From: an uncultured Candidatus Saccharibacteria bacterium
Lineage (GTDB): Bacteria > Patescibacteriota > Saccharimonadia > Saccharimonadales > Saccharimonadaceae
Direction: 5' to 3'
DNA length: 64,000 nt
NCBI GenBank assembly: GCA_947302125.1
Contig: CAMYUL010000003.1
Span: 1 to 64,000 of the forward strand
Shown here: positions 11,017 to 20,812 of the stretch, piece after piece
Layout of the letters: every line of letters begins with the position of its first letter
How positions within the stretch are numbered: the first letter of the stretch is position 1
Position numbers and translations under genes: made by a program
Notes under the pieces: generated by a model
Database searches by the model: none
Told to the model about the DNA's origin: nothing
The model's input: only the letters and a program-made list of their open reading frames with translations

Positions 11017-13580
11017 TCCGCCGCCGCCTTCTCTATCGGCGTTTTCTCGTCACCTTCTTCCTCTTCAGGAAGCACGATACCGATAGAAGCTACCGTATCA
11101 CCTTCGCCCATCTTCATAATGCGAACACCTTGAGTAGCACGCCCAAGCGTTGGAATTTCCTTCATCGCTACACGGATTGCCTGCCCCTTAGTCGACATCA
11201 TGATTACTTCTTTAGCAAGTGGATCAAGGGTATGAACTGCTACGATCGGACCAGTCTTTGTGGTCACTGCTGCCACCTTGATGCCAACACCACCACGCTT
11301 GTGTACTGGGAAGTTTTCTACCGCTGTAGCCTTACCGTAGCCATTAGCAGAGATTGCTAGTAACTTCTGTGATGGATCTGTGACTACGTCCATACCGACA
11401 ATCTCATCCTTTGGACGAAGACGCATACCACGAACGCCCCTGGCCGCACGGCCCATTGCACGTACCTGATCCTCGTTAAACCTTACCGCCTGACCAGCAG
11501 AAGTAGAGATGATAATGTCGTTAGAACCAGTGGTTCCCTTCACCCATTTCAGCTCATCTCCAGCATCCAACTTAATCGTAATCAGACCGTTAGTACGGAT
11601 ATTCTCATAATCCTTAAGGGAAGTCTTCTTGATGGTGCCCTTCTTAGTTGCCATAAAGAGGTATCCATCTGGACCAGCTTCAGAACCCTGCTTGATGATT
11701 GCCGTAATCTTCTCCTCTGGGTGCATATTAAGCATGTTGACTGCAGCTGTACCCTTAGCAGCAAGTGTCGCCTGTGGTACTTCGTAAGCCTTCAAGCGGA
11801 AAATGCGTCCCTGAGAGGTGAAGAACAACAGATTGTCATGTGAATTTGCGGTTACAATCTGAGCGATCACATCCTCTTCCTTAGTTGTCATACCACGCTT
11901 ACCACGTCCACCCCTGTTCTGACGACGGAAGTCATTCTGAGATACACGCTTCATATAGTTCTCGGCGGTCAGCAAGATCACACTTTCTTCCTCTGGAATT
12001 AACTCTTCCTCAGAGAACTTACCAACCTCATGGTTAATAATCTTCGAACGACGTGGGTCGCCGTACTTCTCTTTCATAGCGATAAGCTCAGTCTTGATCA
12101 GGTTGAGGATTTCCTTCTCATCGGCAAGAATTGCTTCGAGTCTCTTGATTAGCTCATGGAGTTCCTTGAGTTCTTCTTCAATCTTGTCACGTTCTAGACC
12201 TTGCAAACGACGTAGCTGCATTGCTAGGATTGCTGCTGCCTGAATCTCAGATAAGCCAAACTTCTTCATGAGCTGCTTATCTGCATCATCGTAGGAAGCT
12301 CTAATCGTCGCAATCACCTCATCGATGTTATCGAGAGCTATCTTCAAGCCTTCCAAGATATGTGCGCGTTCCTTGGCCTTCTTAAGCTCAAATTCAGTAC
12401 GTCTACGCACGACTTTCTGACGGTGCTTAATAAACTCACCAAGAATCTCCTTAAGACCCAAGATACGTGGCTGAATACCGTCAACCAAAGCTAGCATATT
12501 ATAGTGGAATGAAGTCTGAAGACCAGTCATCTTATAGAGCTGGTTTAGAATCTTCTTCGGGAAGGCGTCCTTCTTAAGCTCAACCACCACGCGAATCTTA
12601 CCACGGGCAGACTCGTCTCTGGCGTCAGCGATATGATCAAGCTTCTTCTCCATCGCCAGTTCCCTGACCTTCTGGATAAATGCTTCCTTGCTCATACCAT
12701 AAGGCACCTCTGTAATAACGATGTTATAGCGGCCATTCTTGCGCTCTTCAATGTTTGCTACCGCCCTAATCGTCACCGAGCCTTTACCGGTGGCATAAGC
12801 TTGTTTCATCGGCGTACCGCCATAAACTTCCGCCCCTGTTGGGAAATCCGGACCCTTGACGTGCTTCATCAACTCGTCCAGGGTAATCTCTGGATTGTCA
12901 ATCTGTGCAACCGTTGCATCAACGAGCTCACCGAGGTTATGCGGTGGAATATTAGTTGCCATACCGACAGCGATACCCATCTGGCCATTCAAGAGAATGT
13001 TTGGAAGAGCTGCTGGTAAGACTACTGGCTCCTGCTCTGTACCATCGAAGTTATCGCGGAAATCAACTGTGTCTTTCTCGATATCGGTCAAGAGCTCAGC
13101 GCCCACCTTATCCATTCTTGCCTCTGTATAACGGGAAGCAGCTGGATCATCACCGTCCATCGAACCAAAGTTACCTTGGCCCTCAACTAGGGTATAGCGC
13201 ATCTTCCAAGGTTGCGCCAAGTTCACCATCGCGTCATAGATCGAAGAATCACCGTGTGGATGGTATTTACCCATGACTTCACCGACGATACGTGCGGACT
13301 TTACTGTCGCATGTGGAGCCTTCCAGCCGTTTTTATTCATCGCATAGAGAATACGGCGGTTAACCGGCTTCAAACCATCACGCACATCTGGGAGCGCACG
13401 GTCGATAATCACCGACATCGAGTACTTCAAGAAGTACTCCTCCATCGTACCTTCTACACCACGCTTCTCGATACCCTTAATTGGAGCATCATCGGTCGTC
13501 TCTGCCATCTCCACTTCCACATCTTCTGCGGCTTTGATTGCGTCTTCTTCTGGGATAAGTTTTTTCTTGTCTTCTTCCAT
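11001..13580 (-). CDS. gyrA: DNA gyrase subunit A
   Basis: [34 protein letters not shown]-terminal GyrA box region [10 protein letters not shown]. Confidence 0.98.
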
Positions 13581-13593
13581 TTTTTACTCCTTC

Positions 13594-15576
13594 CTAGAAA
13601 TCCAAGTCGTCAAGATCAACACTTGCCGCTCCAGATTGAATAAAGTTTTTCCTAAGATCGACCTGATCCCCCATCAGCTTAGTGAATACTGCGTCTGCTT
13701 TCTCAGCATCTTCGATGTGTACCTGTACCAGTACGCGATTCTCTGGATCCATTGTTGTCTCCCAGAGCTGTTTTGCGTCCATCTCACCAAGACCCTTAAA
13801 CCGTTGCTGTGCGGTATAGCCAGCCTGCTTAAATCTTTCCTGGTTCTCGTCTATCTTGGTTCCGGCTTTCTTCTTCTCTTCGATTACCTCTGTTAGCTTA
13901 TTCTCTAGTGCTGCCTCATCATACAGATAATCGATCTTACGCGACGAGCCGGTACCCTTAATCAAGCCGAATAGTGGTGGCTTTGCCAGATAGACGTGAC
14001 CTTCCTCAATCACCTGTGGCATATATCTAAAGAAGAATGTCATTAGAAGTGTTGCAATGTGAAGACCATCGACATCGGCATCTGTCATAAAGATGATCTT
14101 ATCGTAGCGCAAGCCGTTAATATCGAATTGTTCGCCAATTCCGACACCTAGACCCTTAATCAAGGAGACTAGCTCTTGGTTTGCCAACATCTTATCAAGC
14201 CTTGCGCGCTCGGTGTTAAGCACCTTACCACGTAGTGGCAAGATTGCCTGAATCTTCGGATTACGACCTTCCTTAGCCGAACCTGCAGCGGAATTACCCT
14301 CTACGATAAAGAGCTCACACTCATTTCTGTCTCTAGAGCTACAATCGGCCAACTTCGAAGGCAAGTTCAAGCCCTCAAATGCACCCTTACGGATAACATT
14401 ATCACGCGCCGCACGCGCCGCTTTTCTAGCACGAGCCGCGAGCGTAGCCTTACCGACAATCTTCTTTGCTACCTGTGGATTCTCTTCTAGGTAATAACCG
14501 AAGTATTCGCTCATTACCTTATCGACATAGCCACGCGCCTCTGGATTACCTAGTTTATTCTTAGTCTGGCCTTCAAACTCTGGATTTGGTAACTTAACAG
14601 ATACAACCGCCGTCAAGCCTTCCTTGATATCATCACCGGTCAGGTTCTCTTCCTTCTCTTTAAGGAGGCCATTTTTACGTGCGTAATCATTAAGCACGCG
14701 GTTAAGCGCTGTACGGAAACCAACTACGTGTGTACCACCATCAGGGGTAAGAACGTTATTTGCGAATGGCTTCATCGTCTCCGCGAAGCTATCATTATAC
14801 TGTACGGCGATCTCTACGCCAGCGTCCTCAATCTGTTTATCGACATAGAAGATGTCATCAGAAAGCACTTCCTTGCCGTTATTCAATCTCTTTACGTAGC
14901 TAGTAATACCACCTTCGAAGTAGAACGATTCCTTAGCGCCAGTCCTCTGGTCCTCAGCGGAGATCAAGATTCCCTTAGTAAGGTATGCCTGATGACGTGC
15001 ATAGCGTAGCACCCACTCGAAATCAATATCTACACCGTTCTTAAAGATGGTGATATCTGGATAAAATGTAATACATGTTCCCTGTTTGTCTGTTTTTCCG
15101 GTAATCTGTAAATCTGAGGTCGGTTTGCCCGTGTCAAACTCGATGTGATGAATTTTGCCATCTCTATAGACTTCGGCGATCATCTTCGTGGAAAGTGCGT
15201 TCACCACTGAAGAGCCCACGCCGTGAAGACCAGATGACACCTTGTAGCCACCGCCACCGAACTTACCACCAGCGTGGAGCACGGTCAGCACTGTCTCAAG
15301 CGTTGACTTCTTCGTCTTCGGGTGGATATCTACAGGGATACCACGTCCGTTATCTTCTACTTTTACTCCCCCGTCTGCTAGTACTGTGATCTCAATCTTC
15401 GAACAGTACCCAGCAATTGCCTCGTCAATAGAGTTGTCCGCAATCTCTTTCACCAAGTGGTGTAACCCATCATAACCGGTCGAACCGATGTACATACCTG
15501 GACGAACGCGAACTGCTTCGAGCCCCTCAAGCACCCTAATTTCCGAGCTGTCATAGTTTTCAGCTTTGTCAGCCAT
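13594..15576 (-). CDS. gyrB: DNA gyrase subunit B
   Basis: VRVRPGMYIGSTGYDGLHHLVKEIADNSIDEA; EGNSAAGSAKEGRNPKIQAILPLRGK. Confidence 0.98.
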   Translation of the reverse strand: MADKAENYDSSEIRVLEGLEAVRVRPGMYIGSTGYDGLHHLVKEIADNSIDEAIAGYCSKIEITVLADGGVKVEDNGRGIPVDIHPKTKKSTLETVLTVLHAGGKFGGGGYKVSSGLHGVGSSVVNALSTKMIAEVYRDGKIHHIEFDTGKPTSDLQITGKTDKQGTCITFYPDITIFKNGVDIDFEWVLRYARHQAYLTKGILISAEDQRTGAKESFYFEGGITSYVKRLNNGKEVLSDDIFYVDKQIEDAGVEIAVQYNDSFAETMKPFANNVLTPDGGTHVVGFRTALNRVLNDYARKNGLLKEKEENLTGDDIKEGLTAVVSVKLPNPEFEGQTKNKLGNPEARGYVDKVMSEYFGYYLEENPQVAKKIVGKATLAARARKAARAARDNVIRKGAFEGLNLPSKLADCSSRDRNECELFIVEGNSAAGSAKEGRNPKIQAILPLRGKVLNTERARLDKMLANQELVSLIKGLGVGIGEQFDINGLRYDKIIFMTDADVDGLHIATLLMTFFFRYMPQVIEEGHVYLAKPPLFGLIKGTGSSRKIDYLYDEAALENKLTEVIEEKKKAGTKIDENQERFKQAGYTAQQRFKGLGEMDAKQLWETTMDPENRVLVQVHIEDAEKADAVFTKLMGDQVDLRKNFIQSGAASVDLDDLDF

Positions 15577-19389: not shown

Positions 19390-19737
19390 CTACAGCCTCT
19401 TTGAGATCACAAAGCACCCCAGTACTATCACTACCACTACCCCTAAAGCGGTCAAAATGTTCAGGCTACCAAATGATTGAATCAAGAGTAGCATAATCGG
19501 GCCGAAGGAGATTGTTGCTGCATAGCATCTGTTCTTACTCTCATTCTTTCCCTTGCCAGCAGCCTTCATAAAAGCCGCCACAATCGCGTTTGTCACCCCA
19601 AATATCAGTACATAAACCATCGCCAAAAAAACAAGTACCCCTAACGGGCCAACGCCTGTCGGGGTAGTAAAATTCATCATCACAAGGATGACGATAATCG
19701 AAACCAGGCTAAGTAGTAGCATTATGCGATTAAACAT
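19390..19737 (-). CDS. Hypothetical membrane protein
   Basis: Multiple TM segments; TATAAT overlaps the 19746 ATG, so start at 19737 (MFNRIM) is more likely. Confidence 0.55.
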   Translation of the reverse strand: MFNRIMLLLSLVSIIVILVMMNFTTPTGVGPLGVLVFLAMVYVLIFGVTNAIVAAFMKAAGKGKNESKNRCYAATISFGPIMLLLIQSFGSLNILTALGVVVVIVLGCFVISKRL

Positions 19738-19759: not shown

Positions 19760-20220
19760 ATTTAAATTTAAAATCTACTCTTTCGAGTAGTTCTCCCTAT
19801 AAGAATTCCCTTATTTTTGCGAGACGTAACTGCGAGAAAACGTCTCTTTAGAAAAAACTTGGGCTAAAGAGTGGGAAGTTATCCGGCACAAATTAACATT
19901 ACTTTAGGCCGCAACTTTTATTCCACTCTCTAGCTTTGACCGCCTCACTGACGCGAGGCATTGTCCCTGCTAATCTGCTATTCACTCTTTTCTTTCCTAA
20001 GGTGCTAGTGTTTACCAGACTAACGCGCTCTACGCTTTTGGCGGAGCTCAAGGTAATTCCTATTGGCTTCCAAATTCGAGATTTTACCCCGACCTTTGGA
20101 CAGCCAGGTGTAATTTATGGCTAGAAATTACCTAGTCGCCCTCCAAATGCAGGATGACTATTTGTATTTCATGTCTTTCCCCTTGTTTTTAATTTGCAAT
20201 TTTTGTTTTGTCTTTCGACT
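19760..20220 (-). ncRNA. Candidate large structured noncoding RNA (unassigned family)
   Basis: TTGAAA-17-TAGACT promoter at 20256-20228; multiple hairpins (GGTAATTT..AAATTACACC, GCCTC..GAGGC, GCTAGAGAGTGG..CCACTCTTTAGC, GAGACGT..ACGTCTC); final CTACTC-GAAA-GAGTAG-ATTTT hairpin. Confidence 0.5.
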
Positions 20221-20415
20221 TATCCTCAGTCTAGCATAAACGGTTTATTTTTTCAAGACTTTTTGCGCCAAAAAGCGTTGTATTTTTTACAACAAACAAC
20301 TATTTTATTCAGCTCTACCCCTGTACTATCGCCAGTTATCAACTGTTGTATTTTTTACAACAAAACCTGTATAATTTTCTTATTTCCTGAACAATTATAT
20401 TACAAGCCTCCTCTC

Positions 20416-20455: not shown

Positions 20456-20812
20456 GGGGCTGACAAAGCTTAGACGGATTATTAACAGATATCAGGCGCG
20501 TCGTTTAGTACCGTAAGTACCGAATAAGTGAAGAAACTTCTTCCAGCAAGCATGTTGCATACATGCCTGCTTTCGCTTAATTTACAGGCGATGATCTAGA
20601 TCGCGAGGTCTCATAGCCCTCTAGATTATCAAATTTATGAGAATCGGGCCTTTACGTGACGTATAAGGGCCTTAAAACTACGTCATGGCACTTAGCAGCT
20701 TTTGTCTACTTGCTGCTGCTAGGAAACGCCAAGACGAGCAAATAGACTATGCGCGTAGAATGGTATCATGGCAATTTTTCGGACCCGGAGGCAGTATCCG
20801 GCAGCTCCACCA
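20456..20812 (+). ncRNA. ssrA: tmRNA
   Basis: 5' GGGGCTGACAAAGC...; 3' GGACCCGGAGGCAGTATCCGGCAGCTCCACCA; in-frame tag candidate ending AYMPAFA-TAA at 20580. Confidence 0.93.

Follow-up and report, generated by a model that had tools for sequence, protein, structure and literature searches.

Dual-function RNAs such as RNAIII and SgrS combine a translated open reading frame (ORF) with a base-pairing region, the leader-peptide regulator TnaC stalls at a C-terminal proline before its stop codon, and OLE, GOLLD, ROOL and HEARO exemplify the large ornate noncoding RNAs of bacteria. The effect of small RNAs on leaderless mRNAs is given as unknown in a review (PMC9031893). Here we describe, in a 64,000-nucleotide stretch of a Saccharibacteria genome (the window), an RNA gene with a structured core conserved across the order, a short ORF and a hairpin loop complementary to the start of infA, the gene for initiation factor IF-1. 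We put at about two in three the probability that its product is a trans-acting antisense RNA, built on the conserved core, that damps IF-1 synthesis.

The preliminary description of this region had placed a large structured noncoding RNA in the interval that separates a membrane-protein gene from tmRNA, and the proposal holds: promoter and position are conserved, covariation is strong, the range is order-wide, and the helices are located on the minus strand where they had been placed. The short ORF, a helix P1 around the hairpin, the infA complementarity and a tmRNA orientation opposite to that of most relatives go beyond that description. The gene and its surroundings comprise the following elements:

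19770..20222, minus strand: whole RNA gene (fold z of -5.5, blastn homologues in the genus, CM matches across the order)
about 20222, minus strand: promoter-proximal 5' end of the RNA
near 19770, minus strand: 3' end of the RNA, close to the terminator-like hairpin; the core ends at 19863
20256-20251, minus strand: promoter -35 element TTGAAA, part of the promoter at 20228..20256
20236-20228, minus strand: extended -10 element TGCTAGACT
20210..20220, minus strand: 5' hairpin AGTCGAAAGAC with unpaired, A-rich sequence after it, kept in homologues
19770..19790, minus strand: terminator-like hairpin CTACTCGAAAGAGTAGATTTT, lineage-specific
19390..19737, minus strand: small membrane protein gene (an ORF with a homologue downstream of the RNA elsewhere)
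20456..20812, plus strand: neighbouring tmRNA gene (RF00023)

The minus strand of the RNA region (471 nt) folds at -147.9 kcal/mol versus -110.9 +/- 6.7 kcal/mol for shuffled sequences (z = -5.5), and none of 100 shuffles folds as well; the plus strand of the same region reaches z = -2.9. The minus-strand promoter read earlier, TTGAAA with a -10 element, is borne out by the motif TGnTAnnnT, which is kept at the -10 place in nearly all homologues, and different terminator-like hairpins, judged by eye, occupy the corresponding 3' position in other families. A stand-alone, independently transcribed structured RNA is the best reading of these sequence features. The downstream membrane-protein gene probably starts at ATG 19737 rather than at ATG 19746, because the latter falls within the gene's own extended -10 (TGTGCTATAATGG, 19755-19743).

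The tmRNA gene, detected by Rfam and missed by ARAGORN, lies close to the RNA in nearly all family loci tested, usually upstream and on the same strand; in the window, unlike in most relatives, it occupies the opposite strand, and one further locus (L092) is likewise inverted. Between the two genes stand two copies of a palindrome, TGTTGTA-N5-TACAACA (20277-20294 and 20344-20362), which has 11 sites in the window genome, often extended by further pairing bases, against none for the reversed pattern. None of the 12 genomes tested from other families contains it. Its sites lie partly ahead of genes for surface proteins and of an nrdD-like gene and partly inside ORFs, a mixture of promoters and ORF interiors that defines no clear regulon, and we rejected the palindrome as a regulon marker.

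Searches with blastn recovered homologues in 51 of the 59 other genomes of the genus. Of the 393 genomes of the order, R1, a model of the 3' core, matched 124 and thereby added 10 genera of the family; R3, a model rebuilt with the R1 matches, raised the count to 267 genomes from 107 of 156 genera, almost always in single copy. As R3 was trained on R1 matches and its E-values are rough, synteny provides an independent check: a homologous membrane-protein gene lies downstream of the RNA, on the same strand, in 40 of 40 loci from other genera and families. Sampling 380 genomes from the phylum gave 23 matches, 22 of them inside the order and one, a weak match, outside it. Named database records with the loop all come from uncultured Saccharibacteria or from bins without classification, and ruminant gut is the source of many. 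Two congeners of the window genome, G035 and G230, each about 99% complete, gave no match to the RNA models.

No Rfam family reached its gathering threshold in the window RNA or in 60 homologous loci; matches near the RNA loci were limited to tmRNA, RNase P and tRNA, and a permissive scan to E = 10 returned chance-level matches only. The tmRNA model RF00023 matches the neighbouring gene and not the RNA itself. The literature searched, in which subscription journals are poorly covered, yielded neither a description of this RNA nor a small RNA for infA. An order-wide RNA absent from Rfam, it is previously unrecognised, and it is found in most sampled genomes of an order of the candidate phyla radiation, with a reach within that order comparable to that of tmRNA or RNase P.

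The conserved structure is organised around a 3' core and two overlapping helices:

19860..19982, minus strand: 3' core, conserved order-wide (R1 match of 97 bits, covariation, order-wide matches)
19959-19942, minus strand: core hairpin GCCTC..GAGGCGGTCAA
19934-19923 / 19874-19863, minus strand: outer stem P7 of the core
19917-19907 / 19887-19876, minus strand: inner stem P8 of the core, with a G / GAU internal loop
20140..20147, minus strand: 5' strand of helix P1 (1000-shuffle test)
20037..20046, minus strand: 3' strand of helix P1, overlapping the 5' strand of P2
20047-20044, minus strand: 5' strand of P2, GCTC
20027..20030, minus strand: 3' strand of P2, GAGC

We aligned the 51 homologues twice, over the 5' core (A1) and over the 3' core (A2); in A2, an alignment based on sequence only, double changes occur at 12 of the 17 consensus pairs. 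Across 50 aligned matches, 96.6% of cells are paired versus 77.9% when shuffled, with a covariation score of 0.584 versus 0.216 that is abolished by sliding the partner strand, and 20 further loci, mostly from other families, reach 98.1% versus 87.3% in the control, all in match alignments fitted to the model and thus biased towards structure. Helices P1, P2, P4, P5 and the outer stem P7 each score above 1000 partner shuffles (P1: 1029 observed versus 816 +/- 20, reached by 0 of 1000 shuffles; P2: 471 versus 429 +/- 6.7, reached by none), figures that are not probabilities, since the shuffles do not keep relatedness.

Compensatory changes far exceed those in shuffles and also stand above slid controls, and the helices of the preliminary description can be sorted by their conservation. 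The GCCTC..GAGGC helix, the long-range stem GCTAGAGAGTGG/CCACTCTTTAGC and the stem AAGTTGCGGC/GCCGGATAACTT that it encloses are conserved and covary in homologues, whereas TAGTC..GACTA, TTGG..CCAA, GAGACGT..ACGTCTC and CTACTC-GAAA-GAGTAG, although present, are peculiar to the window genome or to those closest to it. Pairing of GGTAATTT with GGAATTACC is likewise retained, in genus g48 through a replaced stem that still pairs, but its proposed competitor, GGTAATTT/AAATTAC, is impossible in most g48 members. A riboswitch operating by exchange of the GGUAAUUU strand between AAAUUAC and GGAAUUACC is not required, because most g48 members keep the loop and lose the first pairing.

In other families the RNA measures less than 200 nt and consists of three hairpins, one at the 5' end with an A-rich loop, one that ends in GAGCGGUCAGUC and a long one with the G / GAU internal loop; within the genus, insertions extend it to about 330-1000 nt. 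Binding of a protein or stabilisation of the RNA is the probable role of the 3' core. As for the overlap of P1 and P2, shortened forms of both might coexist as a pseudoknot, and a switch between them is possible.

The 5' half of the RNA in the window carries the coding and antisense elements:

20158..20172, minus strand: short ORF ATGAAATACAAATAG (MKYK-stop), four codons
20179..20184, minus strand: Shine-Dalgarno-like AAGGGG, with an AAAGGA-type motif at the same place in relatives
20052..20132, minus strand: hairpin H1, GGTAATTTCTA / TAGGAATTACC (R2 match at 20034-20151, 75 bits)
20063-20109, minus strand: lineage-specific helix inserted in the H1 loop of the window genome
20110..20124, minus strand: antisense element CTAGCCATAAATTAC, fully complementary to GTAATTTATGGCTAG at the infA start

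The region, which the preliminary description could not match to tmRNA, RNase P, 6S, SRP or a known riboswitch, matches no Rfam family; the accompanying statement that it holds no credible ORF overlooked the four-codon ORF ATGAAATACAAATAG and its purine-rich Shine-Dalgarno sequence. Most congeners carry at this place a basic ORF of 5-12 codons that ends in Pro-stop or Thr-stop, immediately ahead of P1. Of 113 distinct loci, 54 combine a Shine-Dalgarno-preceded AUG with a stop placed exactly 17 nt upstream of H1. The AUG shares the frame of the conserved stop in 49 of the 54, where one third would be expected; the sequences are related and non-independent, and we claim no probability for these counts. 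The last residue of the 49 in-frame ORFs is proline in 32 and threonine in 17, and two longer ORF readings start from an upstream AUG. Other loci, the window included, encode MKYK-stop a few bases further upstream, lacking the terminal Pro/Thr, and the ORF, clear in the genus, is unclear in several g48 members. C-terminal proline is associated with slow termination and trans-translation (PMC3985003), threonine is depleted at bacterial C-termini (PMC7246954), and Pro/Thr C-termini are tied to slow termination (PMC7246954, PMC3985003).

Helix P1 encloses H1. The loop of this hairpin, CUAGCCAUAAAUUAC, hardly varies and is perfectly complementary to GUAAUUUAUGGCUAG, with which the infA mRNA is predicted to begin: 15 nt that include the start codon. 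In g48 the H1 stem is swapped with its pairing kept while the loop is unchanged. The loop holds 12-15 nt, and full pairing would strain or open the hairpin. R2 matches place the P1/H1 domain in genera g1, g48 and g79 only, and an antisense domain limited to part of the family cannot explain the order-wide core.

The RNA is encoded away from this target, at 20 kb on contig C3 of the window genome, whereas infA lies on contig C9 (site at 14062-14073, locus L255). When the 12-nt complement GTAATTTATGGC was searched in 30 genomes, the window genome gave exactly two matches, the RNA gene and infA, and the recurring site outside the RNA gene in congeners was the start of one gene, again infA. It was found there in 15 of 18 congeners screened by exact sequence, a search that misses those with a changed leader; two of the three in which no infA match was read are less than 80% complete. 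The reversed pattern gave 5 matches in the same 18 genomes. The target encodes a 74-residue protein (MASQKEVI..VVEALPNTQFRVELENGH..), IF-1, from a gene between secY and rpsM, with the site identically placed 6 nt past the -10 hexamer, so that the mRNA should begin at its G. Judged by this promoter, the infA mRNA would start at the G of GUAAUUUAUGG and be almost leaderless, with a 7-nt leader and no Shine-Dalgarno sequence, and the complement covers that leader, the start codon and codons 2-3, ending at the predicted infA +1.

The target sites examined are invariant, and the loop variants preserve pairing through wobbles: an A to G change in G030, the one variant checked against its own, unchanged infA, keeps the pair as G-U, and wobbles are likewise expected from the changes in G053 (A to G) and G024 (C to U). 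For g48 we predicted beforehand that infA begins with GTAATTTATGGCTAG, and this was borne out in G225, in which all ten contigs were read and the infA start is retained despite a different protein N-terminus. In this 689-kb genome the infA site is the longest exact complement of the RNA (15 nt, versus at most 13 nt for reversed and complement controls), every other site has at least two mismatches, and 200 shuffled loops gave no match. Reading 33 contig starts of G404 (genus g79) did not turn up infA, and in six other-family genomes with a match to the 12-nt pattern no site is infA. Complementarity to the translation start, exact over 15 nt or with one G-U (G030), is thereby conserved in 15 congeners, which are related and do not count as independent events, and in one g48 genome, the single infA examined outside the genus. 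By these comparisons, pairing between the RNA and infA is well supported. The g48 infA gene (L313, about 11242-11529) also encodes, ahead of the IF-1 domain, a basic N-terminal extension of some 22 residues (MASRKKSTRGIKSKRRSDASNENKP..), and yet its coding sequence opens with the same 8 nt.

The constant position of the membrane-protein gene would also suit a cis-acting leader, a riboswitch or attenuator whose two folds control read-through into that gene, as would the overlap of two covarying helices, P1 and P2, and the terminator-like hairpins found between RNA and gene in many families. Such a leader is nevertheless improbable: the membrane-protein gene has its own extended -10 directly before its start in the window genome and relatives, terminators in other families stand apart from the core and are followed by promoter-like sequence, the RNA varies from less than 200 to about 1000 nt with the downstream gene undisturbed, and the infA complementarity would go unexplained. 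We also consider it unlikely that the match between H1 and infA reflects a common binding sequence for a protein or the ribosome, or a decoy, rather than a base-pairing site. The 5' strand of H1, GGUAAUUU, is indeed the same sequence as GUAAUUU of infA and resembles the infA leader, and a few other genes begin with GTAATTTATGGC (nusB in G007, two genes in G009), but most g48 members carry GCUUAUUU or GCUUACUA in that strand and retain the complementary loop, the complement ends at the predicted infA +1, and the loop change preserves pairing through G-U.

If the short ORF were instead central, as a leader peptide sensing termination or trans-translation with the remaining RNA as its output, its strongly conserved frame, the Pro/Thr before its stop and the position of that stop 3 nt before P1, where a terminating ribosome would cover the helix, would fall into place, as would the adjoining tmRNA, given that C-terminal proline favours trans-translation (PMC3985003). 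We assign this reading a low probability, as the ORF, confined to the genus and possibly some g48 members, is younger than both the core and the proximity to tmRNA, and its peptides shrink to 4 residues, share no conserved sequence and include MKYK-stop, devoid of Pro/Thr. A diverged housekeeping RNA, a copy of SRP RNA or 6S RNA, is highly improbable even though the gene is single-copy in an order in which SRP RNA goes undetected (no RF00169 match above cut-off in 25 genomes). The M domain of the SRP protein Ffh (PF02978) was detected in 0 of 20 genomes of the order, that of the window included, versus 14 of 14 controls, which leaves an SRP RNA no partner; no Rfam SRP or 6S match appeared even at E up to 10 and no helix 8 motif was seen; and the core ends do not pair as in 6S RNA, the 5' part forming a local hairpin and the core being closed by its own stem. 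A scan for a separate SRP RNA by the motif GGAA..AGCAG returned chance-level matches only, and these Saccharibacteria seem to be without an SRP system.

Under the preferred antisense reading, the H1 loop would pair with the 5' end of infA and block initiation or mark the mRNA for decay, so that less IF-1 is made. Ribosomes finishing slowly at the Pro/Thr-stop of the short ORF could cover the 5' strand of P1, and the folding of the RNA would thereby report translation status and close a feedback loop on IF-1. We infer from sequence the duplex in cells, its negative effect on IF-1 synthesis and the control of P1 by ribosomes. With a loop complementary to the infA start in at least two genera, the RNA probably controls the frequency with which protein synthesis is initiated. 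A fuller version, which we advance only tentatively, is that of an IF-1 homeostat: ribosomes initiating on the short ORF and leaving it slowly would set the folding of P1 and P2, and the H1 loop would silence an almost leaderless infA, making this the first small RNA known for a leaderless-type mRNA and for IF-1, on an order-wide core and in an order seemingly lacking the SRP system. For part of the order a concrete target, an initiation-factor mRNA, can be named, which would place translation initiation under RNA control in parasitic bacteria with genomes of about 700 kb, and the RNA-infA pair makes small RNA action on leaderless mRNAs directly testable.

As in trans-encoded base-pairing small RNAs, we find a putative discrete RNA with its own predicted promoter and a short unpaired element complementary to a distant gene's translation start and conserved in relatives; unlike them, it is far larger and more structured, has an order-wide core, and would pair with an apparently almost leaderless target, infA, from its predicted first base. 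It shares with RNAIII and SgrS the union of an ORF and a base-pairing region, but its ORF spans 4-12 codons, stops at a fixed distance from a helix and encodes no conserved peptide, which makes a peptide acting in trans unlikely. The short ORF, the proline before its stop and the tie between ribosome position and a downstream helix recall TnaC (PMC3985003), from which it differs in that many members end in Thr or Lys and the same message contains no clearly controlled downstream gene. Finally, like OLE, GOLLD, ROOL and HEARO, the RNA is long, highly structured and sparse in its taxonomic range; unlike these RNAs, to none of which it has an Rfam match, it offers a candidate contact with a target mRNA.
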